This document shows positions 45,057 through 61,442 of a stretch of DNA of 64,000 nt, one piece after another. Position 1 is the stretch's first letter; every line of letters starts with the position of its first letter. The position numbers were made by a program, and so were the translations under genes. Below the pieces are notes generated by a model. It had not been told where the DNA came from. It did not search any database and saw only the letters and a program-made list of their open reading frames with translations. This DNA is from Bacteroidota bacterium (GTDB taxonomy: Bacteria; Bacteroidota; Bacteroidia; Chitinophagales; Chitinophagaceae): contig VGGR01000002.1 of assembly GCA_016868585.1 (NCBI GenBank), forward strand, positions 1-64,000, written 5' to 3'.

Positions 45057-45064
45057 TATTTTTG
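45057..45064 (+). promoter_or_regulatory. -7 promoter box for the S41 protease gene
   Basis: TATTTTTG fits TAnnTTTG. It overlaps a TTG at 45062, ruling that out as a start codon, and lies only seven bases before the ATG at 45071. Confidence 0.45.
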
Positions 45065-45100
45065 ATTTCCATGTTTTCATACTTACAATACTGGTTGACT

Positions 45101-47224
45101 ATGAAGAGAATTAGCTTGCTAGTGGTGTTGGTCTTAATTGGATCGGTGCTTACTACCCAAATATTAGGCAAAAGCAAAACAAACCTGCCTCCAGATAAGT
45201 ATGAAAAGATAATGTTCCTGATTGGTAAGATGTTGTCCGATGGGCATTATAGTCCTCAACAAATTGATAACGCTTTCTCCAAGCGCGTTTTTGATCGTTA
45301 CCTGACCGAACTCGACCCTGAGAAAAATATTTTTTTAAAGAGTGACATTGCGTCATTACGAGTCTATGAAACTAAAATTGACGACGAATTAACTGGAGCA
45401 CCCATTCTTTTTTTCAAGGCAGTTGGCCACGTTTTTACCACTCGCGTACAGGAGTCGGAGTTATTGTGTCAGAAAATATTGTCCAATGCATTTGTCTTTA
45501 CCAGTGCGGAGGGAGTAGTGTTAAATGCTGATAAGTTGGATTTTCCGTTAAATGAAGCAGAAAGAGAACAGCGCTGGAAAAATAAACTGAAGCACATGTC
45601 GCTGGAGAGATATGCGGAAGGTATAGAAGTTAATAAAAAAGCCGGCGAGAAAGATGGTAAAAACGGTAAGCATGCTGTGGAGTTGGAAAAAGAGGCCCGT
45701 GATAAAGTAGGAAAAATTATGGCACGGACTTTTGATCGATTCAGGAATAAATTCAATGAGGACGACAAGTTCAATTTGTTTGTGAACACCATTACTACCA
45801 CCATGGATCCTCATACGGAGTTTATGCCACCGGTTGACAAACGTTATTTTGATGAAGAGATGGCAGGTCAATTTTATGGCATTGGGGCAACACTCCAATA
45901 CGATGAGGGCAGCATTAAAATTACAAGTGTTGTGGCAGGAAGTCCCGCCTATAAGTCTGGTCAAATCCAATCCGGGGACATCATACTTAAAGTGGGGCAG
46001 GCTGAGGAAGAGCCAGTTGATCTATCGGGTTTTATGACTACAGATGCGGTAAAATTAATACGGGGAAAGAAGGACTCAGAGGTCAGGCTTACGTTGCGAA
46101 AAATCGATGGCACTATTAAAGTAGTTTCATTAATCAGGGACCGAATTGTCCAAGATGAGGGGTATGCGCGTAGCGCGGTAATTCAGGATAACGGGCAAAA
46201 AATCGGTTATATATATCTGCCAGATTTTTATGCTGACTTTGAAAACCCTAACCGGCCCCGCTGCTTCACTGATGTTGCGAATGAATTGGTCAAGCTCAAG
46301 GCGGAGGGAATCAGCGGGTTAGTATTTGATCTTAGAAACAATGGGGGGGGGTCCCTTTACGATGTGGTGCAAATGGCAGGTTTATTTATTGGGGAAGGCC
46401 CTATTGTTCAAGTAAAAGACAGGGATCGTCCAGCCACTATTTTAAAAGATAAGGATAGGGCAATGCAATATGATGGGCCGTTGATTGTGTTAGTGAATGA
46501 ACTCAGTGCATCTGCCTCTGAAATATTTGCTGCAGCCATGCAAGATTACGGTAGAGGTATAATAATGGGAAGTAGCTCAACCTTTGGCAAGGGAACTGTG
46601 CAGCGCAACATAGGCTTGGATCCGCAGTATGGATTTTCCTCTACCAATGCTGAACTGGGAACAGTGAAACTTACGTTACAAAAATTCTACCGGGTTAGTG
46701 GAGGTTCAACGCAATTAAAGGGTGTTATTCCGGATGTGGTTATTCCTGATAATATGGAGTATTTAAAGTTCAGGGAGAAGGATACCAAAGAATCTCTTCC
46801 CTGGGACCAGATCTCAAAAACCTCCTTTATCACCTGGACCCCTTCTTACCAAAAAGACTCTGTAGTAGCTTATGCAAGAAGAAGAATTAGCAGTGACGAC
46901 CTTTTTCAATTAATCAGTAGCACGTCCTTGTTCCTATCCAAACAAAATGAACAGACCGTAAGCCTTCAATTGGATGCTTACAAAAAAGCGCAGGAGCAAA
47001 TAAGAAATGCGGTGAAGCAGTTGGAGGCCTTGCAACAAAATAGAAATCCAATGCAAGTAAATGCATTGCAAGGGGAGGAAAACCGGTGGTCGAACGACAA
47101 ACCAAAGCAAGAGCGGTTTGAACGCTGGTTAAAATCCTTAGGCAAAGACATCTACATTGAGCAGGGGGTTAAGACAATGAAGGACATGATAAGGGAATCG
47201 CCCACTACTGCTAAGCGTGCTTAA
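45101..47224 (+). CDS. Carboxy-terminal processing peptidase (Prc/Tsp type, S41)
   Basis: 707 residues from ATG 45101, which gives a clean signal peptide (ISLLVVLVLIGSVLTTQI). ATG 45071 would add ten residues and is favoured by its closeness to the promoter, so the start is uncertain. An N-terminal Tsp domain precedes a PDZ domain (FYGIGATLQYDEGSIKITSV, SPAYKSGQIQSGD), then the S41 core with VFDLRNNGGGSLYD, the nucleophile motif LSASASEIFAAAMQDYGRG and the catalytic Lys in TFGKGTVQ. The C-terminal DUF3340-like tail completes the Tsp layout. It degrades or trims envelope proteins at their C-termini. Confidence 0.92.
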   Translation: MKRISLLVVLVLIGSVLTTQILGKSKTNLPPDKYEKIMFLIGKMLSDGHYSPQQIDNAFSKRVFDRYLTELDPEKNIFLKSDIASLRVYETKIDDELTGAPILFFKAVGHVFTTRVQESELLCQKILSNAFVFTSAEGVVLNADKLDFPLNEAEREQRWKNKLKHMSLERYAEGIEVNKKAGEKDGKNGKHAVELEKEARDKVGKIMARTFDRFRNKFNEDDKFNLFVNTITTTMDPHTEFMPPVDKRYFDEEMAGQFYGIGATLQYDEGSIKITSVVAGSPAYKSGQIQSGDIILKVGQAEEEPVDLSGFMTTDAVKLIRGKKDSEVRLTLRKIDGTIKVVSLIRDRIVQDEGYARSAVIQDNGQKIGYIYLPDFYADFENPNRPRCFTDVANELVKLKAEGISGLVFDLRNNGGGSLYDVVQMAGLFIGEGPIVQVKDRDRPATILKDKDRAMQYDGPLIVLVNELSASASEIFAAAMQDYGRGIIMGSSSTFGKGTVQRNIGLDPQYGFSSTNAELGTVKLTLQKFYRVSGGSTQLKGVIPDVVIPDNMEYLKFREKDTKESLPWDQISKTSFITWTPSYQKDSVVAYARRRISSDDLFQLISSTSLFLSKQNEQTVSLQLDAYKKAQEQIRNAVKQLEALQQNRNPMQVNALQGEENRWSNDKPKQERFERWLKSLGKDIYIEQGVKTMKDMIRESPTTAKRA

Positions 47225-47228
47225 TTAA

Positions 47229-48296
47229 TCAGGCATTTCTGTTAATACAGTTCAAATCATCAAATGCAATTTCCAGTCGTTTGATGAAGGCTTCCTCACC
47301 TTTACGTAGCCAAATTCTGGGGTCGTAGTATTTTTTATTAGGTTTATCTTCTCCCTCGGGGTTGCCTAATTGCCCTTGTAAATAGGCTTCATTCTTTTTG
47401 TAATTCATTAGGATGCCATCCCAAAAAGCCCATTGTAAGTCTGTGTCAATATTCATTTTAATCGCGCCATAAGCGATTGCTTCCCGGATCTGTTCTTGGG
47501 GAGAACCGCTGCCTCCGTGAAAAACAAAGTATACCGGTTTTGAGCTGGTTTTGAAATGTCGTTGAATGTAATCCTGGCTGTTTTTAAGAATAACAGGTCG
47601 TAATTCAACATTCCCCGGTTTATAAACGCCATGAACATTACCAAATGCAGCAGCCACGGTAAACAATGGGCTTACTTTACTCAACTCAGTGTAAGCGTAC
47701 GCAACTTCGGAAGGTTGGGTATACAGTTTTGCATTTTCAACATCTGATTTGTCTACGCCATCCTCCTCTCCTCCGGTAACACCTAATTCGATCTCTATGC
47801 TCATGCTAAGGGGTTGCATTCGCTTGAAAAAATTAACGGAAGTAGCAATATTTTCTTCAATGGGCTCCTCACTAAGGTCCAACATATGCGAGCTGAAAAG
47901 AGGCTGACCTTTTTCTTTAAAATAGGTTTCACCTGCATCTAATAATCCGCTGATCCAGGGGAGCCATTTTTTTGCAGCATGATCGGTATGTAAAACAACC
48001 GGAACACCATAATATTTAGCCACATTATGAACGTGTAGCGCTCCAGCGATCCCCCCTTGGATATTTCCCTGTAATTGATCATTGGGCATTCCTTTTCCTG
48101 CAATAAACTGGGCACCTCCATTTGAAAATTGAATAATGACGGGAGAGTTTACTTTGGCTGCAGTTTCCAATGTGGCATTAATCGAGTTTGTACCAATAGT
48201 ATTAACAGCCGGAAGTGCAAAATTGTTTTCAATAGCGTCTTGATAAAGTGCTTTTAATTCATCGCCATGCAAAACTCCGGCACGATATTTTTTCAT
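47229..48296 (-). CDS. fbaA: Class II fructose-bisphosphate aldolase
   Basis: 355 residues, length of class IIa enzymes such as E. coli FbaA. Zinc-site and catalytic stretches are visible: VVLHTDHAAKKWLPWISGLLD, MSIEIELGVTGGEEDGVD, AAFGNVHGVYKPGNVELRP and VFHGGSGSPQEQIREAIAYG, KMNIDTDLQWAFW. It splits fructose-1,6-bisphosphate in glycolysis and runs in reverse in gluconeogenesis. The start is preceded by three copies of the pentamer TATCC on the minus strand and, 28 bases out, by a -7 box. Confidence 0.95.
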   Translation of the reverse strand: MKKYRAGVLHGDELKALYQDAIENNFALPAVNTIGTNSINATLETAAKVNSPVIIQFSNGGAQFIAGKGMPNDQLQGNIQGGIAGALHVHNVAKYYGVPVVLHTDHAAKKWLPWISGLLDAGETYFKEKGQPLFSSHMLDLSEEPIEENIATSVNFFKRMQPLSMSIEIELGVTGGEEDGVDKSDVENAKLYTQPSEVAYAYTELSKVSPLFTVAAAFGNVHGVYKPGNVELRPVILKNSQDYIQRHFKTSSKPVYFVFHGGSGSPQEQIREAIAYGAIKMNIDTDLQWAFWDGILMNYKKNEAYLQGQLGNPEGEDKPNKKYYDPRIWLRKGEEAFIKRLEIAFDDLNCINRNA

Positions 48297-48313
48297 AGGA
48301 TAGGATAGGATAG
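48297..48313 (-). repeat. Pentanucleotide tandem repeat in the aldolase leader
   Basis: On the plus strand AGGAT is repeated about three times directly next to the aldolase start codon, inside the expected 5' leader. The unit length means copy-number change would alter the leader by five bases without touching the coding frame. Confidence 0.5.
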
Positions 48314-48324
48314 TTGAATTGATG

Positions 48325-48332
48325 CAAATGTA
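48325..48332 (-). promoter_or_regulatory. -7 promoter box for the aldolase gene
   Basis: Minus-strand TACATTTG fits TAnnTTTG, 28 bases before the ATG at 48296. Confidence 0.5.
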
Positions 48333-48338
48333 GTGTTT

Positions 48339-49700
48339 TTAAGGGTTGCCTAAGGCTGCAATAACATCATATTTTGTAATAATATGATACGCTCCCGCCT
48401 CATCTCGAGTTAATACAGCTCCGTTTTCCTTGCTTATATATTGTGAGAGTTTCTCTACAGGGCTATCAAAGGTTACCAGAGGAAATCCATTTTCCATTAC
48501 GGCGTGTATGGAGGCGTTTTTTAAATCTGGATCTGCAAATATTTTTTTAAAAAGTCCATGTTGACTAATGGCTCCTATGGGTTGTTCCTGGTCCATGACC
48601 GGAATTTGTTCAATATCATACTTTTTCATGAGCTCTACCGCTTCGGACACGGTGTGTTGTGGAGTAACGGTAATTAACTTTTTTGATCCTCGGCTCTGAA
48701 TTATTTCCCGAATTGTTTTTACATCCAGAAACCCACGTTCCATCATCCATTGATCATTGTATATTTTGCCTACATAACGGCTGCCATGGTCGTGTAAAAT
48801 GCAAACAACCATATCGCCTTTTTTTAATTTAATTTTTAATTGGAAAAGTCCTTGTAAACAACTTCCTGCACTATAACCGCAAAACAGGCCTTCTTCTTTG
48901 GCTAATCTCCTTGCCATTATAGCACCATCTTTATCGGTTACTTGTTCAAAATGGTCTATGAATTGCATGGCATAATTTTTAGGGACAAAATCTTCGCCGA
49001 ATCCTTCACTCACATATGGTTTTACTTCGTTCATATCAATTTGGCCAGTCCTAAAGTACTTGGTAAGTAAAGAGCCATAAACGTCAATTGCCCATATTTG
49101 AATGGCGGGATTTTTTTCTTTAAGGTATTGTGCGGTACCGGTAATGGTTCCCCCGGTTCCCGCAGTACAAACCAGGTGCGTTATTTTGCCATCTGTTTGT
49201 TCCCATATCTCGGGTCCGGTTGTTTCGTAATGGGCCTGTCTGTTAGCTAGATTGTCGTATTGATTCATGTGACAGGAATTGGGAACTTCTTTGGCTAAAC
49301 GGGCAGCAACACTATAATAACTTCGGGGATCCTCGGGGAGCACGTTGGTGGGGCAAACAATAACTTCTGCTCCCACTGCCTTTAATATATCCACTTTTTC
49401 CTTTGACTGTTTGTCCGTGGTCACAAAAATGCATTTATATCCTTTTACAACGGCAGCTAATGCTAAACCCATACCTGTATTTCCACTGGTTCCCTCTATT
49501 ATGGTGCCACCCGGCTTTAAACGTCCATCCTGTTCTGCAACCTCAACCATTTTTAAAGCTATTCTGTCTTTGATCGAATTTCCGGGATTGAAGTAATCTA
49601 CTTTTGCCAGGACTTCGCAGGGCATTTCACTGGTTATTTTATTTAGGCGGATAAGGGGCGTGTTGCCAATGGTCTCTAGAATGTTATTTTTAATATCCAT
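48339..49700 (-). CDS. Cystathionine beta-synthase (PLP domain plus CBS pair)
   Basis: 453 residues. The PLP-dependent domain has NTPLIRLNKIT, the Schiff-base Lys in FNPGNSIKDRIALKMV, the Asn loop GTSGNTGMGLALA and the phosphate loop AGTGGTITGTAQYL. The C-terminal 120 residues form two CBS domains (TVSEAVELMKKYDIEQIPVMD, SPVEKLSQYISKENGAVLT), which argues for cystathionine beta-synthase rather than plain cysteine synthase. It condenses serine and homocysteine. The start overlaps the end of the S41 gene by 11 bases. Confidence 0.9.
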   Translation of the reverse strand: MDIKNNILETIGNTPLIRLNKITSEMPCEVLAKVDYFNPGNSIKDRIALKMVEVAEQDGRLKPGGTIIEGTSGNTGMGLALAAVVKGYKCIFVTTDKQSKEKVDILKAVGAEVIVCPTNVLPEDPRSYYSVAARLAKEVPNSCHMNQYDNLANRQAHYETTGPEIWEQTDGKITHLVCTAGTGGTITGTAQYLKEKNPAIQIWAIDVYGSLLTKYFRTGQIDMNEVKPYVSEGFGEDFVPKNYAMQFIDHFEQVTDKDGAIMARRLAKEEGLFCGYSAGSCLQGLFQLKIKLKKGDMVVCILHDHGSRYVGKIYNDQWMMERGFLDVKTIREIIQSRGSKKLITVTPQHTVSEAVELMKKYDIEQIPVMDQEQPIGAISQHGLFKKIFADPDLKNASIHAVMENGFPLVTFDSPVEKLSQYISKENGAVLTRDEAGAYHIITKYDVIAALGNP

Positions 49701-51216
49701 AATTATTGATTGTTTTTAGCGCTAAACGGATAGTACTGTCCTTCGTGTTCAAAATCTGGAAATAACCATTATCTCTCCACTTGTAACGTGCAATAGTGGC
49801 TAAGATTCTTTCGGATAAAAATTTTTTCTCTTGCGCTGAATAGTTGGGTAATGCAGGCCTTGCCTCTTTCTCAACGCTAACCCATTGATTCCACATGGCA
49901 TTGATCAATGACGTATCTGTTAGCAATGACAACGGAGAGTTTTTATTGTCAATACTGGAAATATGCTCCAAATAGAATGGAAAAGAAAATTGGTTTATCG
50001 AAGCCAACCCATGCATGAGATTTATTGAGTTAAGTATCGTAGAGCCGTTATTGTTTGGAGTTTTTATTTGGGGCGTAATTCCATTTTCTTCTTGTAAGGT
50101 ATCCCCGCAGGAGTTGATGAAGTAACGATTGTTTTTTAAGGTGTCATTCCCTTGATAAGGAAGTTGTATGCATCTGCCCAAGGGGGTATAGTATCTGGCT
50201 ACAGTAAGACGTAATGCAGCGCCTGTGGCGAGAGCATATTCTTCTTGAACTAATCCCTTTCCAAATGATTTTTGTCCGATTATTTTACCTCTACCCCAAT
50301 CCTGGATGGCTCCCGCTAATACTTCACTGGCACTGGCAGAAAACTCATCGATGAGTAACACTATTTTTCCTTTTTCAAATTGCCCGGGTCTGCGAGCTCT
50401 AAATTCTTGTTTGCCTATTTTTTGCCCTTCAGTGTATACGATTAACTTATCCTGGTCAAGAAATTCATCTGCTATGTCTACCGCTTCAGTCAATAAACCA
50501 CCTCCATTGCCTCTTAAGTCTAACACAAGGTGTAGTGCTCCTTGTTTTTTTAGCGTCTCCAAAGCCTGCATGAATTCCTCGTAGCTGCTTGCTGAAAACC
50601 GTTCCAGACGTATATAACCTGTTTGGGGCTCTATCAAATAGAAAGAACTGATTGCTGGTAGTGGAATTAGATCTCGTTGAACAGGTATTTGTACTGTTTG
50701 CTGGTTTCTGTGCACGGTCAGTTCTACCCAAGAATTTCTTTTCCCTCTGACAAGAGAACGGATTGAATCTGTTGAAATGTTTTTTCCATAAAGAAGATGA
50801 CCGTTAGCACTTAACAGTTGATCTCCTAATTTTAACCCTGCATTTTCACCAGGACCGGATGGAATAACATAAGTAATGGTAGCTGTGTCACGGAATAGTC
50901 CAAACTCCACACCAATCCCTTCAAAATGGCCTTTCAGAAGTTCGGCTGATGCGGCTACTTCTGCAGGGTTTAAATAACTGGAGTGGGGGTCTAATTTATT
51001 GAGCAATACCTCTACGTTGGTCGATTTCATACCCTCCAGATCAATTGAATCAACGTATTTATTATTAACTAAAGTTAAAACCTGTTGAAAAGTAGATTGA
51101 TTGTTATCCCCAAATAATTTACATGCTGGAAATAGTAATTGACTGGCAAAAAGTAATAGGATAAGTACTAACGCAACGATTATGGGTAGAGCGAAATCCC
51201 TTTTATTATTTCCCAT
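49690..51216 (-). CDS. S41 family peptidase (CtpA type)
   Basis: 508 residues with an N-terminal membrane anchor (PIIVALVLILLLFASQLLF). The PDZ domain (FEGIGVEFGLFRDTATITYV, SGPGENAGLKLGDQLL) is followed by the S41 core with LVLDLRGNGGGLLTEAVDIAD, the nucleophile motif EFSASASEVLAGAIQDWGRG and the Lys in SFGKGLVQEEY. It lacks the long N- and C-terminal domains of the Tsp-type protease at 45101, so the two are different subfamilies. It probably faces the periplasm and trims protein C-termini. Confidence 0.92.
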   Translation of the reverse strand: MGNNKRDFALPIIVALVLILLLFASQLLFPACKLFGDNNQSTFQQVLTLVNNKYVDSIDLEGMKSTNVEVLLNKLDPHSSYLNPAEVAASAELLKGHFEGIGVEFGLFRDTATITYVIPSGPGENAGLKLGDQLLSANGHLLYGKNISTDSIRSLVRGKRNSWVELTVHRNQQTVQIPVQRDLIPLPAISSFYLIEPQTGYIRLERFSASSYEEFMQALETLKKQGALHLVLDLRGNGGGLLTEAVDIADEFLDQDKLIVYTEGQKIGKQEFRARRPGQFEKGKIVLLIDEFSASASEVLAGAIQDWGRGKIIGQKSFGKGLVQEEYALATGAALRLTVARYYTPLGRCIQLPYQGNDTLKNNRYFINSCGDTLQEENGITPQIKTPNNNGSTILNSINLMHGLASINQFSFPFYLEHISSIDNKNSPLSLLTDTSLINAMWNQWVSVEKEARPALPNYSAQEKKFLSERILATIARYKWRDNGYFQILNTKDSTIRLALKTINNYGY

Positions 51217-51234
51217 TTAGGCCTAATTTTTGCA

Positions 51235-51250
51235 TAACTTGTGCAAGTTA
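51235..51250. promoter_or_regulatory. Short palindrome between divergent genes, possible operator
   Basis: TAACTTG and CAAGTTA, separated by TG, form a perfect seven-base inverted repeat between the ctpA-type gene and the amino-sugar kinase gene. The form suits a dimeric regulator, but none is encoded nearby. Confidence 0.3.
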
Positions 51251-51288
51251 ACTTATTTGTTTTGAACCTTTTTTATATTGGTTGAACA

Positions 51289-52134
51289 ATGGCTACTGTA
51301 AAATTGGTCGCAGATAGCGGAGCTACAAAAACAGCGTGGTGTCTCTTGGAGGGGTCTAAGAAGCGGAAGATACTAACTGCGGGTATAAGCCCTTATTTTT
51401 TAAATACTGCCGAAATTGTCACTGTACTTCAGCAAGAGTTGTTGCCTAAATTGAAAAAGGTAACCATTCAGGAGATTTTTTATTATGGCACTGGGTGTGC
51501 AAACCCTGCTAATGCAAAAATTGTATATAAAGCACTTGCACTCCTTTTCCCTGCAGCAAGGATTGAGGTTAGGCATGATCTAATGGGTGCTGCACGCGCA
51601 TTATGTGGAAGTGAAAAAGGAATTGTTTGCATTTTAGGCACTGGCTCAAACTCTTGTTTTTACAATGGCAAAAAAATAACCAGGAATAGTCCTGGCTTGG
51701 GATATGTGTTGGGTGATGAAGGAAGTGGTGCATACTTGGGGAAAAGGGTGATACAGTATTATCTCTATGGAACTTTTGATGAAGAGTTAAGGGGGCGATT
51801 CGAGTTGAGATTCACTACAACACCTGCTGAAATCTTGGAAAACGTTTACAAGAAATCACTTCCTAATCGGTACTTGGCTTCTTTTACTTCTTTTCTTGCG
51901 GAGAACAGAGGACATTATATGATCGAAAATATTCTCGAGGATGGGCTCAATGATTTTTTCTTCCAACACTTATGTCGATACCCGGAAGTTTGGAAATTCC
52001 CCCTGCATTTTACAGGTGGAATTTCCTATGCCTTTAAAGATGTAATAAAACAATTATGCTACCATTATGAATTCGAATTAGGCAGCATACTTCCTAACCC
52101 GACGCAAGGGTTGATAACCTTTCATTCACCCTAA
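51289..52134 (+). CDS. N-acetylglucosamine kinase-like protein (BadF/BcrA family)
   Basis: 281 residues of the ASKHA fold. The first phosphate loop is LVADSGATKTAWCLL, the second is CILGTGSNSCFYNGK, followed by GYVLGDEGSGAYLGKRVI, and the adenosine site lies near HFTGGISYAF. These motifs are those of GlcNAc kinases that make GlcNAc-6-phosphate. murQ follows one base after the stop. Together with nagA they would feed recovered cell-wall sugars to metabolism. The exact substrate (GlcNAc, MurNAc or glucosamine) cannot be told. Confidence 0.88.
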   Translation: MATVKLVADSGATKTAWCLLEGSKKRKILTAGISPYFLNTAEIVTVLQQELLPKLKKVTIQEIFYYGTGCANPANAKIVYKALALLFPAARIEVRHDLMGAARALCGSEKGIVCILGTGSNSCFYNGKKITRNSPGLGYVLGDEGSGAYLGKRVIQYYLYGTFDEELRGRFELRFTTTPAEILENVYKKSLPNRYLASFTSFLAENRGHYMIENILEDGLNDFFFQHLCRYPEVWKFPLHFTGGISYAFKDVIKQLCYHYEFELGSILPNPTQGLITFHSP

Positions 52135-52135
52135 T

Positions 52136-52945
52136 ATGAGTTTTGAGCGAATAACTGAGAAAAGCAGTTTGTATCGGCATTTGGACAAGATGTCTGTTAA
52201 TCAATTGCTGACGCTTATTAATCAGGAAGATCAAAAAGTCCCTGCTATTATCACTTATGCTATTCCCCAAATTGAGCAGTTAGTTGAGGCGATTGTTGAT
52301 AAAATGCTGATGGGGGGTCGTTTATTTTACATTGGGGCAGGCACCAGCGGTCGGTTTGGTATTGTCGATGCTAGCGAATGTCCGCCGACCTATGGTGTTC
52401 CGCCGGGTTTAGTCATTGGCATCATAGCAGGAGGCGAACAGGCCATCACCAAAGCGGTGGAAAAAGCGGAAGACAATTGGGAGCAAGGATGGATGGATTT
52501 GAAGGCATATGAGGTAACGACTCAGGACGTTGTGATTGGCATTGCTGCAAGTGGAACAACTCCTTATGTGATTGGTGCTTTAAGGCAGTGCCGTAAAAAT
52601 GGCATTGTAACAGGTAGTATTTGTTGCAACCCTCAATCGCCACTAAGTGCGGAAGCTGATTATCCAATTGAAGTAGTGGTAGGACCTGAATTTGTAACGG
52701 GAAGTACGCGTATGAAGAGCGGAACTGCACAAAAGTTGGTACTGAACATGATCTCTACTGCTGTAATGATTCAATTAGGTAGGGTAGAAGATAACAAAAT
52801 GGTCAATATGCAACTCACGAATGATAAGTTAGTGGATCGGGGCACCAAGGTGTTAATGGAATTAGCCAAGATTGGGTCCTATGATGAAGCAAAGGAGCTT
52901 TTACTCAAAGCCGGAAGTGTTAAAAAGGCGTTAGCACTTTTATAA
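52136..52945 (+). CDS. murQ: N-acetylmuramic acid 6-phosphate etherase
   Basis: MurQ cleaves the lactyl ether of MurNAc-6-phosphate to give GlcNAc-6-phosphate. The 269-residue protein has the SIS-domain signature FYIGAGTSGRFGIVDASECPPTYG, the catalytic-region EKAEDNWEQGWMD and the family stretch GSTRMKSGTAQKLVLNMIST. It lies directly after the sugar-kinase gene, and its product is the substrate of NagA (11477). The closing helical extension is somewhat short compared with E. coli MurQ (about 300 residues). Confidence 0.95.
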   Translation: MSFERITEKSSLYRHLDKMSVNQLLTLINQEDQKVPAIITYAIPQIEQLVEAIVDKMLMGGRLFYIGAGTSGRFGIVDASECPPTYGVPPGLVIGIIAGGEQAITKAVEKAEDNWEQGWMDLKAYEVTTQDVVIGIAASGTTPYVIGALRQCRKNGIVTGSICCNPQSPLSAEADYPIEVVVGPEFVTGSTRMKSGTAQKLVLNMISTAVMIQLGRVEDNKMVNMQLTNDKLVDRGTKVLMELAKIGSYDEAKELLLKAGSVKKALALL

Positions 52946-52956
52946 TTTTTTTTCGC

Positions 52957-53529
52957 ATGCACACGGTAGAGCCGTTTTATAATTGGCAACATATCTACAG
53001 TAGCGAATTGGACCAGCTTTCTCCATTTTGCGGAAGATCTTATTCCGAGTTTGAATTTTCACAAACCGTATACAACTACTATATTCACCCGCAATGGGAT
53101 GAGTTTGGCAGCCGGACCCTTTATCTGAAGGTATTGATGGCGGATTATGAAGAGCACTACATGATAATAGAGTTGCTGGGTGAATGGAATGATGCGCTGG
53201 AAAACGACATCATGCTCCTCAAAAGGGAAGTGCTTGAAAAGTTTATGGACCAGGGAATTGTTTACTTTATCTTGATCGGAGAAAATGTTTTGAACTTTCA
53301 TTTCGACGGCGCTGACTATTATGAAGAATGGAAAGAAGAATTGGATGAAAAGGGAGGATGGGCAGTCTGTTTGAATCTTTCTATCTCCAGCTCCTTGGAA
53401 TTTCAAAAGGCCCGTCTTGATCGATTTTTACCCTTACTTGCCCTTGACGATTGGCGTATCTATAAGCCTTTTCACCTTTTTAAAAAAACAGGTCTTGTCT
53501 TAGCTTCGCTTCTTCTACATTCCGATTGA
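52957..53529 (+). CDS. Conserved hypothetical protein
   Basis: 190 residues, no signal peptide or membrane segment, rich in aromatic and acidic residues (YYIHPQWDEFGSRTLYLKVL, DGADYYEEWKEELDEKGGW). I do not recognise a domain. It follows murQ by 11 bases and may be in the same transcript, but its role is unknown. The 176 bases between it and the truncated gene at 53706 hold no recognisable feature. Confidence 0.72.
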   Translation: MHTVEPFYNWQHIYSSELDQLSPFCGRSYSEFEFSQTVYNYYIHPQWDEFGSRTLYLKVLMADYEEHYMIIELLGEWNDALENDIMLLKREVLEKFMDQGIVYFILIGENVLNFHFDGADYYEEWKEELDEKGGWAVCLNLSISSSLEFQKARLDRFLPLLALDDWRIYKPFHLFKKTGLVLASLLLHSD

Positions 53530-53705
53530 TAAGGTTCTTTTCCATTTTTTAGCTGTGGCTTGCTCATTTTGCAACCTGAAGAATAGCTTGAGTTTTCTAT
53601 TGCTAACCTTAAAATTTCTCGCCGATAAAATGGTCTGCATTGTTCAATTCCTCTGTAGGTAGGAAATGGACTATGGGTTTGACAGGAATCTTTCTGATTC
53701 TGTTC

Positions 53706-53906
53706 CTAATCGTACACGTAGGATTGAACGCCTGTATCTGGGGCCAGCAGTAACGTAACAATTGCCTTTTGATTTTCCGGATCCGCCTCCAGTATATCAA
53801 GGCAAATACTTTCAGTCGGCATAGGTTCATTCAACAGGCGGTAGCGTTCCGCTTTTTCAAGCGCCGCCGGAATGTTCTCTTTGGAGAGGGGCTTAATTTG
53901 AAACAT
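53706..53906 (-). pseudogene. Truncated TPR-like gene (N-terminal fragment)
   Basis: From ATG 53906 the frame reads MFQIKPLSKENIPAALEKAE, then RYRLLNEPMPTESICLDIL and NQKAIVTLLLA, the N-terminus of a tetratricopeptide-like protein common in Bacteroidota and, from memory, about 150 residues long (usually continuing LLLALTDQF). Here it changes at about 53742 to an unrelated tail of 11 residues (PDTGVQSYVYD) and stops. No continuation is visible in the other two frames down to 53530. It begins 39 bases after the sdhB stop on the same strand, so it travelled with, or was once part of, the sdh operon. Confidence 0.6.
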
Positions 53907-53945
53907 AGAAAATGGTTTAAACAACCTGATTACTATGGTTTGATC

Positions 53946-54701
53946 TTAGCTGTTTCGTTTCCTGGATCGAAACAGGCGAAATAATTTTTTTAACGGGTCA
54001 TAATATTTATCCGCAATTCTTTCTTTTAAAGGTATGATGGCATTGTCAGTAATGGTGATTTCCTGCGGGCAAACATTTGTGCAGCATTTTGTGATATTGC
54101 AAAAACCAATGCCATCTGTTTTCTTCAGGTCTTCTCGGCGGTCTTCCACATCCAGCGGATGCATTTCCAATGAAGCCACATGAACAAAATACCTCGGACC
54201 TGTAAAACGTTCGTGCAGATGATGTTCTCTCAATACATGGCATACATCCTGGCAGAGAAAACACTCGATGCATTTTCTGAATTCCTGCACCCGGTCAATA
54301 TCTTCCTGCGCCATTCTCCAGCTACCGTCAGCTGCATCTGGTTTGCGGGGTTTGAATTTTTTTATTTTTTTCTTGACCTCAAAATTCCAGGAAACATCTG
54401 TTACCAGGTCTTTAATTAACGGGAATGCCTTTATCGGTTGCACCAGCACAGGCTTATCAATTGGCAGCTCATTCATCCGGCACATGCACATGAGTTTTGG
54501 AATTCCATTTACTTCTGCCGAACAAGAGCCGCAATGCCCGGCTTTGCAATTCCAGCGGACCGCCAGGTCATTTGCATATTTTGCCTGTATCAGCAGGATG
54601 GCATCCAGCACAACCATGCCTTCGGAAATTTCAAGTGAATAATCCTCGAAAGTTCCGATGCTGGCATCACCACGTTGTATTTTAAATGTTGCTGTTGGCA
54701 T
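53946..54701 (-). CDS. sdhB: Succinate dehydrogenase iron-sulfur subunit, Sdh1-like type
   Basis: 251 residues. The plant-type 2Fe-2S site is C52-C57-C60-C72 (RWNCKAGHCGSCSAE...LMCMC). The second cluster region is FRKCIECFLCQDVCHVLREH (C144, C147, C150, C154), and the third is GFCNITKCCTNVCPQEITITDNAIIPLKER. The CIECFLCQ...CHV and NITKCCT stretches are those of the Sdh1 branch best known from mycobacteria, not of the usual Bacteroidota SdhB. It passes electrons from SdhA flavin to SdhC. It is the last intact gene of the operon sdhC-sdhA-sdhB. Confidence 0.9.
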   Translation of the reverse strand: MPTATFKIQRGDASIGTFEDYSLEISEGMVVLDAILLIQAKYANDLAVRWNCKAGHCGSCSAEVNGIPKLMCMCRMNELPIDKPVLVQPIKAFPLIKDLVTDVSWNFEVKKKIKKFKPRKPDAADGSWRMAQEDIDRVQEFRKCIECFLCQDVCHVLREHHLHERFTGPRYFVHVASLEMHPLDVEDRREDLKKTDGIGFCNITKCCTNVCPQEITITDNAIIPLKERIADKYYDPLKKLFRLFRSRKRNS

Positions 54702-54779
54702 ATCCCTGCCCTAAATGGGGTTCTGGTTTTTTTAAAAATTTATTTTTTTTCTCACTAAAAAAAACTTTTATAGTTCACA

Positions 54780-56591
54780 TTACTTCATTTCTTCTATGAT
54801 TTTTTTAAGGTCTTCCCGAATTTCAGGAATAGGCTCTTGCCTGATAGTCATTTCACCACTGGCATTTTGCTTTATCACTAAATTATACTTTCCGCAATTG
54901 GGATCTTTGTCAGGATAGTCTTCCCGAAAATGTGCGCCGCGGCTTTCTTTTCTTTCCAGCGCTGCCATTGTTATGGCTTCAGATGCGATCAGCATATTGC
55001 GAAGATCAAGCGCCGTATGCCAGCCCGGATTAAATTCCCTGTTGCCATTTACAAAAACGTTTGCAGATCTTTTTCTCAGCAGCCGTAAATGCTCTTTTGC
55101 CCGCAACATTTCTTCTTCATTCCGCACAATACCCACCCACTGCTGCATCATATCCTGCAGGGCAAACTGCACATCGAATGGGCTGTCTCCATTTTCCCTT
55201 TCGAAAGGCTGCAGTGCATATTTTTCAGTTTCATTAATTTGTTTTTCATCAATGGCGCCTGCTTTATTTTCTTTGGCAAATTTTGCAGCGTACTCGCCGG
55301 CTCTTTTTCCAAACACCAACAGATCAGAAAGTGAGTTACCACCAAGACGATTGGCGCCATGTAATCCTGCGCCACATTCGCCGGCAGCAAAAAGCCCCGG
55401 CAGGGTTGACATTTGTGTTTCTGCATGTACACGGATGCCCCCCATCATATAATGTGTGGTGGGCCCGATCTCCATCGGTACTTTGGTAATATCAATGTCG
55501 GCCAGTTTTTTAAACATATGAAACATGCCCGGCAATTTTTTCCTTATGTGTTCTTCCGAATTGGAAATTTTTTTCTTTATCCAGGAAATGTCCAGGTAAA
55601 CACCGCCATGCGGACTTCCTCTTCCTTCTTTTATTTCACGAACGATGCAACGGGCCACATGATCACGGGTAAGCAATTCCGGCGGACGCTTTGCATCCTT
55701 GTCCCCCTGTATATATCGCCAGCCTTCTTCTTCATTATCTGATGTTTGATTTTTATATGCATCGGGTATACTGTTGAACATGAACCGTTCTCCATTCTTG
55801 TTAAGTAAAATCCCACCCTCGCCACGAACACCCTCGGTTACCAATATGCCACGGACACTTGGCGGCCAGATCATCCCGGTCGGATGAAACTGTAAAAATT
55901 CCATGTCAATTAATTCTGCCCCGGCTTCGTATGCCAATGCATGGCCATCGCCGGTATATTCCCAGCTGTTGCTGGAAATCTTAAATGAACGGCCGACACC
56001 ACCGGTTGCCAGTATCACGGCTTTTGCATGAAATGTTTTAAATCGTCCTCTTTCTCTTTCATATCCGAATGCACCAACTACACGGTCACCATCTTTCAGT
56101 AACGTAATGATGGTGCATTCCATATGTACTTCTACCCCCTGGTAAATGCAATGGTCCTGTAATGTGCGGATCATTTCCAGCCCTGTTCTGTCGCCGACAT
56201 GTGCCAATCTTGGATATTTATGTCCACCAAAATTTCTTTGCAATATTTTTCCGTCTTCGGTGCGATCAAACAATGCACCCCATGCTTCCAGTTCTCTTAC
56301 ACAAACCGGAGCTTCCTTTGCATGGATCTCTGCCATCTGCCAGTTATTGAGATATTGGCCTCCCCGCAATGTATCTGTGAAATGTACTTTCCAGTTATCC
56401 CTGTCGTCCACATTGGCCATGGCCGCTGCAATGCCGCCTTCTGCCATTACCGTATGTGCTTTTCCCAATAATGACTTACAGATCAAACCAACAGTAACGC
56501 CTTGTGATGATGCTTCGATAGCAGCACGAAGACCGGCGCCACCGGCGCCGATGACAAGTACATCGTACTTATATGTATCGTATGATGACAA
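54780..56591 (-). CDS. sdhA: Succinate dehydrogenase flavoprotein subunit
   Basis: 603 residues. The FAD-binding motif VIGAGGAGLRAAIEAS is followed by AHTVMAEGGIAAAM (the covalent-FAD His region), the substrate region LQFHPTGMIWPPS, EGVRGEGGILLNKNGERFM, SPHGGVYLDISW, and the second FAD stretch GLFAAGECGAGLHGANRLGGNSLSDLLVF. It oxidises succinate to fumarate (or the reverse). The size and context with a five-segment SdhC point to the Sdh1 branch. It is 78 bases upstream of sdhB and 113 bases downstream of sdhC. Confidence 0.95.
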   Translation of the reverse strand: MSSYDTYKYDVLVIGAGGAGLRAAIEASSQGVTVGLICKSLLGKAHTVMAEGGIAAAMANVDDRDNWKVHFTDTLRGGQYLNNWQMAEIHAKEAPVCVRELEAWGALFDRTEDGKILQRNFGGHKYPRLAHVGDRTGLEMIRTLQDHCIYQGVEVHMECTIITLLKDGDRVVGAFGYERERGRFKTFHAKAVILATGGVGRSFKISSNSWEYTGDGHALAYEAGAELIDMEFLQFHPTGMIWPPSVRGILVTEGVRGEGGILLNKNGERFMFNSIPDAYKNQTSDNEEEGWRYIQGDKDAKRPPELLTRDHVARCIVREIKEGRGSPHGGVYLDISWIKKKISNSEEHIRKKLPGMFHMFKKLADIDITKVPMEIGPTTHYMMGGIRVHAETQMSTLPGLFAAGECGAGLHGANRLGGNSLSDLLVFGKRAGEYAAKFAKENKAGAIDEKQINETEKYALQPFERENGDSPFDVQFALQDMMQQWVGIVRNEEEMLRAKEHLRLLRKRSANVFVNGNREFNPGWHTALDLRNMLIASEAITMAALERKESRGAHFREDYPDKDPNCGKYNLVIKQNASGEMTIRQEPIPEIREDLKKIIEEMK

Positions 56592-56704
56592 TGAAAAGTT
56601 TGTGTTTATAGTTTATTGTTTTTGTTTTCAGCTTTAGCATATTTTCAATCTTAAATTCATTTTCAACAAGCTAACGATGTGCGGGAGGTTTGGAGGGGCG
56701 GCGT

Positions 56705-57517
56705 TTAAAAAATTCTCCAATCAGACCAAACCCCCATCGAACATAACCTGACATAAATATCAGTAAACCCAACCCAGAACAAACTCAACCATGCCCACAA
56801 CATATGCTTGCGGTTTAAACAACTCACACATTTATACATTTTAAAACGAACCGGTTTACCGGAAAGCCGGTCCAAAAACCCTCCAACCGCATGACGAAGC
56901 GAATGGCAGCCCAATGTATAGCCGCCCAGCAATACAACATTGACGGTTAATACCAATGTGCCCACACCTAATCCAAAAGATTTTACACCTGTATCCGGAT
57001 TGACAAACCATAATGCTTTCCATACATCAATAGAAAGAAAAACAATAAACATCAATGCGATATACATAAAGTAACGGTGAATATTCTGCATGATAAGTGG
57101 GAAAGAGTCTTCGCCGCGATAGGTTTTTCTGGGTTCTGAAACTGTGCATGAAGGAGGGTCGGCCCAGAATGCTTTATAATATGCGCCACGATAATAATAA
57201 CAGGTAAGACGAAACAATCCCGGAGCCCATAAAATCAACAATGCCGGTGACCATGGCAACCAGGTTGGCCACCAGCCAGGTATAGAGCCAAACCAGCTAT
57301 GCGAAGATTCGCCAAATAATTCAGGTGAATAAAGTGGAGAAAGATAAGGTCCATGATGATAATGATTACCCTGAAAGGCGGCCAATGTTGTGTAGATAAC
57401 AAAAGCGGAAAGGCCAAGAAAAGTAAATAACGGTTTTACCCACCACGCATCTTTGCGACTGGTGTAACCAAAACGATGGATTGTTTTTCCCAAATTCATT
57501 CCTGGCATAAAAGGCAT
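56705..57517 (-). CDS. sdhC: Succinate dehydrogenase membrane anchor subunit, Sdh1-like
   Basis: 270 residues, a single large anchor with about five membrane segments instead of the short SdhC/SdhD of other types. His and Cys residues stand out: H147 in NIHRY, GCHSLRHAVGG (C204, H205, H209) and YKCVSCLNRKH (C230, C233, H238). Mycobacterial Sdh1 has been reported to carry a Rieske-type cluster in this subunit, and the paired Cys/His here would suit that; this is inference. ATG 57508 or 57499 are alternative starts. A good promoter lies at 57586-57617. Confidence 0.85.
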   Translation of the reverse strand: MPFMPGMNLGKTIHRFGYTSRKDAWWVKPLFTFLGLSAFVIYTTLAAFQGNHYHHGPYLSPLYSPELFGESSHSWFGSIPGWWPTWLPWSPALLILWAPGLFRLTCYYYRGAYYKAFWADPPSCTVSEPRKTYRGEDSFPLIMQNIHRYFMYIALMFIVFLSIDVWKALWFVNPDTGVKSFGLGVGTLVLTVNVVLLGGYTLGCHSLRHAVGGFLDRLSGKPVRFKMYKCVSCLNRKHMLWAWLSLFWVGFTDIYVRLCSMGVWSDWRIF

Positions 57518-57585
57518 TGTTTTTATTAAGACAATCGTTCAAGCTCATTTGCTATCTTTTAAAAAAGAAGAAGATACTATCTTGG

Positions 57586-57617
57586 CAAAGATAATTCACA
57601 AAAGATAAGGAAACAAA
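57586..57617 (-). promoter_or_regulatory. Promoter of the sdhCAB operon
   Basis: On the minus strand TTTG (57614-57617) and TATCTTTG (57586-57593) are 20 bases apart, matching both Bacteroidota promoter elements. The leader before sdhC is about 65 bases. The operon therefore carries a promoter of the phylum even if its proteins are of an unusual branch. Confidence 0.6.
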
Positions 57618-57682
57618 AAGTGATGGGGTAAGACCAAAGGCTCCAATAAATTGTATTCTAATTTTTAGCGAATCATACCTAA

Positions 57683-57859
57683 GTTTCTCATTTGGTTTTG
57701 CTTCCACAAGTACACCCTGAAAAGAAAAAGCAAGCCTTAAACATGGTGGCACAAATGGATAAAGAAGGGTTTGGAGCCTGTACGAACACAGGTGCCAGTA
57801 AAGCTGTTTGTCCAAAGGGAATCTCTATCGAAAATATAGTCCGGTAGAATCGGGAGTAA
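57683..57859 (+). pseudogene. Relic of a different sdhB (C-terminal end)
   Basis: Plus-strand codons give VSHLVLLPQVHPEKKKQALN, then MVAQMDKEGFGACTNTGASK and AVCPKGISIENIVR, followed by a stop (57845-57847). This is the C-terminal end of the ordinary Bacteroidota SdhB/FrdB, whose usual text is LALLPQG...GFGxCTNTGACExxCPKGISxxNIARxNREY. The likeness continues past the stop as N-R-E and then a second stop where Tyr is usual. One cluster Cys has become Ser (TGAS). Upstream an in-frame stop precedes VSH. No start or earlier part of the gene is present. It lies on the strand opposite to the intact sdhCAB. Confidence 0.8.
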
Positions 57860-57927
57860 GGATGGCTGGCTTATCAGAAAATAAATAAAACATTGATAAC
57901 CAATTTAATTCAATGATTTATTTTATT

Positions 57928-59025
57928 TTAAACATTAAATCTGAAATGCATAACATCTCCGTCTTTTACAACATATTCCTTTCCTTCAATTCGGAGTTTG
58001 CCTGCCTCTCGACAGGCTGATTCTGAGCCATATTGGATATAATCTTGGAAGGCTATGACCTCTGCTTTGATAAAGCCTTTTTCAAAGTCAGTATGAATCA
58101 CACCGGCTGCTTGTGGAGCCTTCCAGCCTTGTTGTATGGTCCACGCTCTGACTTCTTGCACTCCCGCTGTAAAATAGGTGTAGAGGCTGAGTAATTTGTA
58201 GGCACTATGTATCAGTCGGTCCAGTGCCGGTTCTTTCATTGCATATTCCTCCATGAATAATTGCTTATCAGCAGGCTCTTCCATTTCAGTAATCTGCGCT
58301 TCAATGGAGTTATTCATAATAATCATCTCAGCATTCTCATGTAGAATGGCTTCTTGTAATGCCTTAGAAAATCGATTACCAGTATGCATCGAGGCCTCGT
58401 CCACATTTGCCACATATAAAACTGGTTTTTCAGTCAATAAAAATAGATCTGCAATAGCTGCTCTTTCTTCTTTACTGAGTTGAAGACCCCTAATATTTTT
58501 TCCTTTCTCTAATTGATCTTTACAACATAGCAGTACATCTAGTTCACCCTTAAGTTTTGGGTCAACCCGTATTAACTTTTCCCTTTTTTGAATCTTCTGC
58601 TCTACACTTTCCAGATCTTTTAATTGTAATTCTATGTCAATTATATCCTTATCACCTGCGGGGTCAATAGCTCCTTCATCTCTTAAAATATTCTCATCCT
58701 CAAAACAGCGTATTACATGTATAATGGCATCCACTTCACGAATGTTGCCTAAAAACTTATTTCCCAAACCTTCCCCTTTGCTGGCTCCGCGAACTAATCC
58801 TGCTATATCTACAATTTCAATTTGTGTTGGTATAATTTTTTGAGGTTGCACTAAGGCAGCCAATTGATTTAAACGGCTGTCAGGTACATCCACTAATCCA
58901 ACATTGGGGTCAATGGTACAGAATCGATAATTACTGGCCTGTGCTTTGGCGCTGTTGCTGACAGCGTTAAACAAAGTGCTTTTTCCAACGTTGGGTAAAC
59001 CAACAATTCCAGCCTGAAGTGCCAT
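57928..59025 (-). CDS. ychF: Redox-regulated ATPase YchF (OLA1 type)
   Basis: 365 residues from ATG 59025 (MALQAGIVGLPNVGKSTLFN), the usual YchF start and length; an upstream TTG at 59061 lies inside a promoter box and is rejected. Motifs are G1 GLPNVGKST, G3 DIAGLVRGASKGEGLGNKFL, the ATP-specifying NVDE in VLYVANVDE, and the C-terminal TGS-like domain with AWTIQQGWKAPQAAGVIHTDFEKGFI. YchF binds ribosomes and affects stress responses; its exact role is not settled. Confidence 0.96.
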   Translation of the reverse strand: MALQAGIVGLPNVGKSTLFNAVSNSAKAQASNYRFCTIDPNVGLVDVPDSRLNQLAALVQPQKIIPTQIEIVDIAGLVRGASKGEGLGNKFLGNIREVDAIIHVIRCFEDENILRDEGAIDPAGDKDIIDIELQLKDLESVEQKIQKREKLIRVDPKLKGELDVLLCCKDQLEKGKNIRGLQLSKEERAAIADLFLLTEKPVLYVANVDEASMHTGNRFSKALQEAILHENAEMIIMNNSIEAQITEMEEPADKQLFMEEYAMKEPALDRLIHSAYKLLSLYTYFTAGVQEVRAWTIQQGWKAPQAAGVIHTDFEKGFIKAEVIAFQDYIQYGSESACREAGKLRIEGKEYVVKDGDVMHFRFNV

Positions 59026-59058
59026 AAATAAGGAAGTATTACTTTTTGTAAGCGGTTG

Positions 59059-59066
59059 CAAATGTA
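59059..59066 (-). promoter_or_regulatory. -7 promoter box for ychF; decides the start
   Basis: Minus-strand TACATTTG fits TAnnTTTG and overlaps the upstream TTG, leaving ATG 59025 as the start with a leader of about 30 bases. Confidence 0.5.
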
Positions 59067-59134
59067 AAGGAATTCACTCTTCTATTTGGAACCAGCAACT
59101 TGATTTTCCTATCTTCAAGGGAACAAAATAAATT

Positions 59135-60622
59135 ATGACATTAACCAGAATTTGGGCTGCTTTTGTCCTCATAGCCTCTATAGTGGGGGGTAGCCGATTA
59201 TTGAATGGCGATGATAAGATTTTTGTAAGAATGATAACTGGCAAATCCACAGATCGGTATGATTCCACTTTTTATCTATCTGTGGGAAATCCTACACACC
59301 TGGGTTTAGCTGCGAACTATTCTACATTCCTGGCTGAATACGGGTACTTTCCTACAGTTGAACCTGCAAAAGCCAGATTGCTATTGCATGATTTTAGACA
59401 GCCGGATTCAATCGCTTATTTCACTAAACAAAATTCTACTCTTGAAGTTATTAGCTACATTGATATTCAGTCAAGACTGGTCAGAAAAGTGGATGGGGTG
59501 ATTGAAACTGCAAAGAATGCGTTCTTAGATATTATTTTACCATTAGTTGGGATTTTGGCCCTGTTCATGGGGTTTTTATCCATTGCTGAAAAGGCTGGGG
59601 GAGTCAGACTGCTTTCCAGATTGATATGGCCTTTCTTTTCCCGAATATTTCCAGAGGTACCAAAAGGACATCCTGCAACCGGGCATATGATGATGAATTT
59701 CTCTGCAAACCTTCTCAATTTGGATAACGCCGCAACACCTTTTGGCCTTAAGGCCATGGAGAGCCTGCAAGAGCTTAATCCAAATAAAAACATTGCCAGC
59801 AATGCTCAATTGATGTTTCTGGCCTTACATGCTTCTGGTTTGACCTTGATACCCGTAACGATCATGGCTTATCGTTCAGGATTAGGAGCGGCTGACCCTA
59901 CTGATATATTTATTCCCTGCATGATTGCCACTTTTGCAGCCACTATTGCAGCACTTTTCATTGTGTCATGGAGGCAAAAGATTAATTTATTTCAACCCGT
60001 TATTTTAGGATGGGTAGGGGGCATAACGGCTATAATACTCCTGCTGGTCAGTTATATAATCCGTTTGGATGCCACCGCCTCCCAACTTTTTTCCTCCCAA
60101 TTAAGTAATGGGATCATATTATTCATATTTGTTGCCATTGTACTTGGGGGATTGTACAAAAAGATAGATGTATTTGATGCATTTGTGGATGGTGCTAAAG
60201 GTGGGTTTGAAACCGCCATTCGAATTATACCCTACATTGTTGGCATGTTGGTGGCCATTAGTTTACTACGTTCCAGCGGAAGTTTTGATTATTTAATAAA
60301 TGGAATTAAGTTTTTGTTCTCAAAAACTGGAATAGATAGCCGTTTTGTAGATGGCTTACCCACTGCATTAATCAAGCCATTGAGTGGAAGCGGCGCGCGA
60401 GGAATGATGTTGGATACCATGAAAACCTTTGGCCCTGATTCGTTTGCAGGGCGCCTGGCTTCCGTTTTACAAGGTTCCTCAGATACTACCTTCTATGTGG
60501 TAGCTCTCTATTTTGGCTCAGTAAATATCCGGAATACGCGTTACGCGATTGGATCTATGCTGTTAGCTGATTTAGTTGGTGTAATCACTGCAATTATGCT
60601 TAGTTATGCATTCTTTGCCTGA
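59135..60622 (+). CDS. SpmA-SpmB fusion (nucleoside recognition domain protein)
   Basis: 495 residues with about ten hydrophobic segments. It contains two Gate/nucleoside-recognition domains: the SpmA-like first half (LDIILPLVGILALFMGFLSI, NLLNLDNAATPFGLKAMESL, MFLALHASGLTLIPVTIMAY) and the SpmB-like second half (VDGAKGGFETAIRIIPYIVGML, SGSGARGMMLDTMKTFGPDS, QGSSDTTFYVVALYFGSVNI). In spore formers these are separate genes; fused forms occur in Bacteroidota, which do not sporulate. The substrate is unknown. A shared terminator follows. Confidence 0.9.
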   Translation: MTLTRIWAAFVLIASIVGGSRLLNGDDKIFVRMITGKSTDRYDSTFYLSVGNPTHLGLAANYSTFLAEYGYFPTVEPAKARLLLHDFRQPDSIAYFTKQNSTLEVISYIDIQSRLVRKVDGVIETAKNAFLDIILPLVGILALFMGFLSIAEKAGGVRLLSRLIWPFFSRIFPEVPKGHPATGHMMMNFSANLLNLDNAATPFGLKAMESLQELNPNKNIASNAQLMFLALHASGLTLIPVTIMAYRSGLGAADPTDIFIPCMIATFAATIAALFIVSWRQKINLFQPVILGWVGGITAIILLLVSYIIRLDATASQLFSSQLSNGIILFIFVAIVLGGLYKKIDVFDAFVDGAKGGFETAIRIIPYIVGMLVAISLLRSSGSFDYLINGIKFLFSKTGIDSRFVDGLPTALIKPLSGSGARGMMLDTMKTFGPDSFAGRLASVLQGSSDTTFYVVALYFGSVNIRNTRYAIGSMLLADLVGVITAIMLSYAFFA

Positions 60623-60643
60623 CCAATAACCCATTGGGTAATT

Positions 60644-60674
60644 AAAAGAGCCGTACTACTAGTACGGCTCTTTT
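60644..60674. terminator. Bidirectional terminator between convergent genes
   Basis: A perfect 14-pair stem (AAAAGAGCCGTACT and its complement) encloses an ACT loop. Both ends carry A/T runs, so it can stop transcription from the SpmAB fusion and from the DUF4397 gene. Confidence 0.93.
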
Positions 60675-60692
60675 ATAGGTATAATCTTGGAA

Positions 60693-61442
60693 TTAATAAT
60701 TCAAGAACAAGCTTACTGTTCGGATACTTGCCCCACTAGTAGCGCGGTGAGAGCCGCGGTATACAACTGTATAGCTTCTCTTTGGTTCTAATATTGAAAT
60801 AGCTGAAGTAGCGAGTACTGTGCTGGTTCCGGCTAACCTAACCTGAAACGCTTCAGTACCAATTTTGGTAGGGTGTACAATAAATTCTGTAACGTCAGTA
60901 TACTGTAGATTTGTTGCAACAACCTCGTTTTTACCAAGGGATACAATATCAACAGCAGGGGTTACCGCCAAGCCATTATAAGCAAAGTTGGCAAAGCGCA
61001 CACGGCAAGTAGTATCTATTGGGATGTTGATGGCAGTTTCAACGGTCTTTTGCTTTACGGCTGAGATGGTGTCATAGGTGAAGATCGTATAGTTTCTTCC
61101 TCCTCTCATCACGTTGGTAAAGCTAAGTGGCACCTGGGTAGTAAGGGTCAGGGTATCCCGAATCAGGAAGTCACGTTGTCCGTCCGGGACGAAAAATCCG
61201 TAGCCCGTACTCGGAAAAACGGAACCGGAGCTAAGAGCGGATCCATTTTGAGGTTTGCTATCCACATACACGTAGTTTCTACTGGCGCCAACCGTTGCAA
61301 TATAGACTTTAGCAATGCTATTAGCACTGAGGTCGCGTTGCTGGATTATCTTTTCATCGAAGGTCTTCTCGCAGGATATCAGTACGATTCCGGCCAGCAG
61401 AAGCACTCCAAAACCGTGGATATATTTTTTATTAAGTCTCAT
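60693..61442 (-). CDS. DUF4397 lipoprotein
   Basis: 249 residues with a lipoprotein signal ending LISC (C24). The mature protein is rich in beta-strand and has the DUF4397 style: SIAKVYIATVGASRNYVYVD, VRFANFAYNGLAVTPAVDIV and EPKRSYTVVYRG. Such proteins often accompany SusC/SusD pairs, probably at the cell surface. It starts 19 bases after the SusD stop, so it belongs to that operon. Ligand unknown. Confidence 0.85.
   Translation of the reverse strand: MRLNKKYIHGFGVLLLAGIVLISCEKTFDEKIIQQRDLSANSIAKVYIATVGASRNYVYVDSKPQNGSALSSGSVFPSTGYGFFVPDGQRDFLIRDTLTLTTQVPLSFTNVMRGGRNYTIFTYDTISAVKQKTVETAINIPIDTTCRVRFANFAYNGLAVTPAVDIVSLGKNEVVATNLQYTDVTEFIVHPTKIGTEAFQVRLAGTSTVLATSAISILEPKRSYTVVYRGSHRATSGASIRTVSLFLNY

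Follow-up and report, generated by a model that had tools for sequence, protein, structure and literature searches.

A class F succinate dehydrogenase operon lies between the stumps of the class B operon that it appears to have replaced in a Chitinophagaceae genome

We analysed a 64-kb stretch of DNA (the window; positions 1 to 64,000 of VGGR01000002.1, contig 2 of the 20 contigs of a Chitinophagaceae genome, here called G000) and found a complete class F (Sdh1-type) succinate dehydrogenase operon, sdhCAB, lodged inside the remains of a class B operon, the b558-type, diheme enzyme that is ordinary in the genus. We consider it very probable that the resident class B complex II was replaced in place by a class F operon from a congener resembling another genome of the genus, G044. 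Two stumps of the old operon, a pair of junctions and a near-identical piece of DNA in G044 carry this conclusion.

Results

The class F operon occupies a block of 3938 bp (53743..57680, reverse strand) that is inverted relative to the operon it displaced, with homology to the resident locus ending at 53742 and restarting at 57681. On the left, the first 118 bp of a b558-type sdhC, which we take to be class B, remain at 53625..53742 (forward strand), cut at 53742 and with the start codon ATG changed to ATA (53625-53627). This stump is identical to the sdhC of the congener G010 at 115 of 118 nucleotides and is collinear with the G010 upstream region; over 53535-53742, which adds that upstream region to the sdhC start, 199 of 208 positions are identical. 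On the right, the 3' part of a class B sdhB is retained in decayed form at 57681..57861 (forward strand), with a TAG at 57845, a TAA at 57857, one deleted base and a Cys-to-Ser change in the CTNTGAC motif. Positions 57692-57844 of the forward strand match the ordinary SdhB model NF005746 at positions 186-234 (E 1.3e-14), while the wider interval 57674-57859, with one TAG and two TAA codons inside it, matches positions 179-240 (E 1.4e-17). Of 60 second codon positions without variation among five close congeners, 6 differ in the stump, against 0 of 60 when each congener in turn is treated as the odd one. Judged from these changes, the TAG and TAA codons and the lost cluster-motif cysteine, the sdhB stump is a dead gene under no visible constraint.

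The same locus in the congeners G010 and G043 holds an intact ordinary sdhC-sdhA-sdhB operon between murQ and ychF, and both flanks of the block are collinear with both genomes. All three G010 proteins exceed the cut-offs of their models (SdhC, TIGR02046 (b558), 140 bits; SdhA, NF005749, 1175 bits; SdhB, NF005746, 437 bits). Approximately 3.16 kb of resident DNA has been lost from G000; the gap opens behind codon 39 of sdhC and closes near codon 186 of sdhB. A search of the whole of G000 (1.77 Mb, 99.4% complete) with the G010 resident operon returned only 53535-53742 (96%), 57681-57889 (76%) and 43 bp of upstream flank, and no second complex II was found anywhere in the assembly; the class F enzyme is therefore its only complex II. 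The one other PF02910 protein of G000, on contig C10, is an L-aspartate oxidase (TIGR00551 nadB, 535 bits against a cut-off of 453).

These observations bear on a first-pass annotation of the window, which had proposed that a complete Sdh1-type operon replaced the resident enzyme in place, leaving a block of about 3.9 kb at 53742..57662 between two broken genes, a TPR-like gene on the left and the end of an ordinary Bacteroidota sdhB on the right. The replacement, the size of the block and the decayed sdhB all hold, as does its suggestion that the genome had changed the type of its complex II, and the checks that it called for, synteny with relatives and a search for a second sdh operon, came out in its favour. 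The limits of the block had to be moved to 53743-57680, and the broken resident gene on the left is sdhC; the TPR-like gene belongs to the incoming block.

Within the block, sdhB (53946..54701), sdhA (54780..56591) and sdhC (56705..57517) are all intact and lie on the reverse strand, so that the operon is complete, as had been annotated. SdhA, the sole SdhA found in G000, scores 972 bits against the 819-bit cut-off of the NCBIfam model NF005866, and SdhB scores 391 against 256 bits for NF009052. For all three subunits the best match in the Protein Data Bank (PDB) is Sdh1 of Mycobacterium smegmatis, 7d6v (SdhA, 7d6v_A, E 1.1e-217; SdhB, 7d6v_B, E 9.7e-93; SdhC, 7d6v_C, E 1.3e-58). The single membrane anchor, SdhC, had no match in NCBIfam and Pfam profile searches, and 7d6v is its only PDB match with E <0.05, residues 19-269 aligning to chain C. 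Upstream of sdhC, a candidate promoter at 57586..57617 (reverse strand) reads TTTG-N20-TATCTTTG, which fits what we take to be the Bacteroidota promoter consensus; it is the sole exact match in 53001-58000, and the two strands of the whole window together contain 4.

In SdhC, C106, C124, H147, C204, H209 and H238 are kept in 55 of 55 aligned rows (the genome G275 being counted twice), and in SdhB 12 of the 13 cysteines are kept in every aligned relative (55 or 56 per position), the thirteenth being present in none of them. SdhA H46, H236, R256, H380 and R415, presumably the residues that bind flavin adenine dinucleotide and substrate, are invariant in seven same-family SdhA sequences. An AlphaFold2 model of SdhC from residue 2 has six helices of at least 15 residues, the last two nearly continuous, although its mean predicted local distance difference test score is only 72. 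By homology, the incoming enzyme would carry a Rieske-type cluster, and it probably works in the cell and oxidises succinate with menaquinone. In a review (PMC10238741), class F complex II, including the M. smegmatis Sdh1 structure, is described as having one anchor, six helices and a membrane Rieske cluster, and class B as having five helices and two b hemes.

The block also includes the 5' fragment of the TPR-like gene, about 61 of 171 codons at 53743..53924 (reverse strand), which is truncated by the left junction. The gene is intact in G044 (L189:11260-11775, reverse strand), follows sdhB in 11 of 11 other same-family carriers of class F, and is matched by a homologue close to sdhB at 14 of the 47 other loci (L103-L150). 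It has no NCBIfam match, 'TPR-like' being the label of the first-pass annotation, and no second copy was found in G000. Among the 42 same-genus genomes compared (G000 counted), matches occur in G000 and G044 only. On these grounds we rejected the idea that the left junction had disrupted a TPR gene of the resident locus, since the gene belongs with class F operons. Its product may be a partner of class F complex II or may help to assemble it; should it serve the enzyme, the G000 enzyme would manage without it.

To place the operon, we built an SdhA tree of 69 rows, a quick reconstruction with support by the Shimodaira-Hasegawa-like approximate likelihood ratio test only. Its rows were the window SdhA, 8 same-family carriers and G275, the same-order genome G032, the 47 loci of L103-L150, 9 of 32 more distant loci (L151-L182) and 2 resident SdhA; the partial copies L053 and L066, and L202 (G525), were excluded. 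The G000 protein is of the Sdh1 type, far from ordinary Bacteroidota SdhA, and pairs with that of G275 (support 100), the nearest class F SdhA found beyond the genus, and then with that of G094 (95), in a clade of 10 same-family sequences (98). This clade is nested among Acidobacteriota, Gemmatimonadota and Planctomycetota with supports of 85-90 and open forks; its nearest neighbour is a Myxococcota record (90), and the actinobacterial rows stand elsewhere in the tree. L149 and L150 form long branches, and L149 has no match for SdhC or SdhB of the class F kind. Actinobacteria as the immediate source were rejected, since SdhA is 50-58% identical to the actinobacterial sequences found and falls in a separate clade.

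A much closer relative of the block was found within the genus. Contig 27 of G044 (L189) ends with a counterpart of window positions 53743-54264, 522 bp of DNA that is 98% identical, comprising a piece of sdhB (317 of 319 nucleotides identical), the spacer (19 of 21) and the TPR fragment (176 of 182). In the sdhB piece the proportion of synonymous differences (pS) between the two genomes is 0.015 (1 of 66 sites), whereas in ychF it is 0.78, which is saturated. Near-identity despite this overall divergence argues for a recent transfer within a circle of G044-like organisms and not directly from Actinobacteria. Differences from G044 are more frequent in the TPR fragment than in sdhB (6 of 182 against 2 of 319; Fisher p 0.03), as expected of a truncated gene. 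Because the TPR-like gene is whole in G044 and cut in G000, the transfer would have run from a G044-like lineage to G000. G044 itself retains its own class B operon, on contig 6. The branch that the first-pass annotation described as best known from mycobacteria is the right class; among known sources a G044-like congener comes nearest, followed by the same-family clade, with Actinobacteria more distant. Its proposed phylogeny agrees with its reading, and neither of the outcomes that it named as contrary, relatives that all carry the class F operon or SdhA and SdhB grouping with ordinary Bacteroidota enzymes, was found.

Surveys of related genomes set this locus in context. In the same-genus set, ordinary SdhB passes the cut-off in 39 of 42 genomes, the others being G000, G020 (a run of N) and G009, which has no SdhB match and only a 42-residue piece of ychF, an absence that we read as an assembly gap; in G016, sdhB is split over two frames. 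Class F SdhB passes only in G000 (1 of 42), G044 having its partial copy at a contig end, and these counts led us to reject vertical descent of class F within the genus. In a draw of 394 genomes of the family (G000 counted), the class F SdhA cut-off is passed in 10, and two more, G185 and G099, hold partial copies. Ordinary SdhB above the cut-off accompanies class F in 10 of the 11 further carriers of the family; the exception, G099, is 83% complete. At the level of the order, class F is the only complex II found in G032 (94% complete), and G027 (80% complete) has a 46-residue class F piece at 78% and no ordinary SdhB match. In a draw of 395 genomes of the phylum, 2 pass the class F cut-off, G000 and G525. 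From these counts, few genomes of the phylum have class F, and in the family it is usually an additional enzyme.

Some further features of the two loci were noted. The left flank (45003-53742) is nearer G010 (88.7%) than G043 (81.2%), and the right flank (57681-61096) is nearer G043 (86.0%) than G010 (84.1%), mixed affinities that may reflect earlier recombination near this locus among members of the genus. A 190-codon gene at 52957-53529 (forward strand), without a Pfam or NCBIfam match for its product, lies between murQ and sdhC in G000 and G043 and is absent from G010. In G044, the end of the class F sdh operon shares the last 12 kb of contig 27 with a divergent photolyase and with what we interpret as genes for formate dehydrogenase and formate-tetrahydrofolate ligase. 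The first 18 kb of that contig resemble 11 other G044 pieces in composition and the last 12 kb do so less, in a test on pieces of unequal length (12 kb against 17-20 kb), an imbalance that alone raises the distance; the photolyase is only 56-61% identical to those of nine congeners, which are themselves 65-96% alike. Somewhat unusual composition together with the divergent photolyase suggests that this region was probably acquired as well, and it may be an acquired island.

Discussion

We propose that a segment with the complete class F sdhCAB, its own promoter and the start of the TPR-like gene would have arrived from a G044-like congener and replaced about 3.16 kb of the resident operon, ending up in the opposite orientation. 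The heme-b class B complex II would have been lost in the same event, and the class F enzyme would since then have been the sole succinate:menaquinone oxidoreductase of the cell. The likely route would be uptake of a DNA fragment followed by end joining, with the product selected because the block supplies succinate oxidation. At the left junction the donor-like and resident sequences have just G or GG in common, and the 40-base stretches around both junctions contain no common 5-base word, direct or inverted. A stronger proposition is that one illegitimate recombination with congener DNA exchanged the sole complex II, diheme class B for Rieske-type class F, that the new enzyme alone sustains the cell, and that the class of complex II can thus be switched in one step. 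Towards this we lean with modest confidence.

Several observations weigh against this account. No further pieces of the block were found in G044, whose copy stops inside sdhB at the contig end, leaving the remainder of the operon and the right junction without a donor sequence for comparison. Since the DNA beside its sdhB looks acquired, G044 itself may have been a parallel recipient rather than the donor. The G+C content of the block (43.1%, against 41.8% for the window) is inconspicuous, and the junctions are those of the assembled sequence. Finally, the sdhB stump bears more changes (9 of 115 conserved positions, first and second of the codon) than does the TPR fragment (6 of 182, counting all positions), so that some decay may have preceded the swap.

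This last point bears on the best-surviving alternative, an unlikely but not negligible sequence of two steps in which the class B operon was already inactive, or class F was already present elsewhere as a second enzyme, when the block landed. Coexistence of the two classes is indeed usual, since nearly all other same-family carriers also have ordinary SdhB. However, apart from the lost start codon the sdhC stump is hardly altered, neither a second class F copy nor an extra resident remnant was found in G000, and the counts are too small to separate the timings. We favour one step over two, without regarding it as proven.

It is very improbable that the block is an assembly or binning chimera, with class F DNA of a co-occurring G044-like organism stitched into the contig. 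The fragmentation of G000 into 20 contigs and the near-identical DNA in another genome of the genus would allow for such an error, but the stumps at both junctions are mutated like dead genes (a lost start codon, stops and the Cys-to-Ser change), the differences between the block and G044 are concentrated in the truncated TPR fragment, and the missing resident parts lie on no other contig of a nearly complete genome. Slighter still is the chance that a dedicated recombinase inserted a transposon or plasmid-like element with sdh: the distribution of class F operons in the family is patchy and a class F-like SdhC is encoded in 3 of 72,556 PLSDB records (1.1 to 11.9 Mb long, distant matches), yet about 3.16 kb of resident DNA was lost, unlike in a simple insertion, no recombinase-like gene appears among the block's genes in our reading of the open reading frame list, and the searches for a junction word and for repeat pairs of at least 14 bases at the block ends were empty (3 direct and 7 inverted pairs were found, none marking the ends), so that an insertion-sequence or transposon origin was rejected.

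In-place replacement by congener DNA, our preferred account, makes G000 a recent natural experiment in which a heme-containing class B enzyme has been lost and a class F enzyme left. It bears on whether, in reducing menaquinone with succinate, a class F enzyme economises on heme or on membrane potential. The class of complex II is normally an old lineage trait; if the one-step reading is true, it can be switched at once.

Among known systems, the incoming enzyme most resembles the class F Sdh1 of M. smegmatis (PDB 7D6V), which all three subunits match best, with Sdh1-type equivalog models passed by SdhA and SdhB and a single anchor in common; it differs in that its SdhA is only 50-58% identical to the actinobacterial sequences found. 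Class F is the only complex II of G000, whereas M. tuberculosis has both Sdh1 and Sdh2 (PMC9426501). The G000 stumps belong to sdhC and sdhB of the class B enzyme, no whole class B gene of which was found in G000, and which differs from the present enzyme in membrane anchor and cofactors (PMC10238741). Gene displacement in situ (Omelchenko et al. 2003, via PMC2783167) likewise replaces a resident set at its own locus by a distant homologue with loss of the resident copy. There, the operon keeps its structure and the change is attributed to homologous recombination, whereas in G000 a whole operon was replaced by an inverted block that ends inside sdhC and sdhB and leaves old stumps at both ends, with only one or two G shared at the left joint. 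No described displacement of complex II in this group appeared among the titles and opening lines of abstracts in the literature searched. To our knowledge, and within these searches, no other example combines remnants of the old operon on both sides with a change of complex II class. Displacement of an essential respiratory gene is usually inferred from conflicting trees, whereas here the footprint is legible in one sequence, in both stumps, the block ends, the near-identical congener piece and a linked gene cut by the junction. In-place displacement is thus already known as a process, and the two-sided footprint combined with a change of class makes this an unusually clear case of it.

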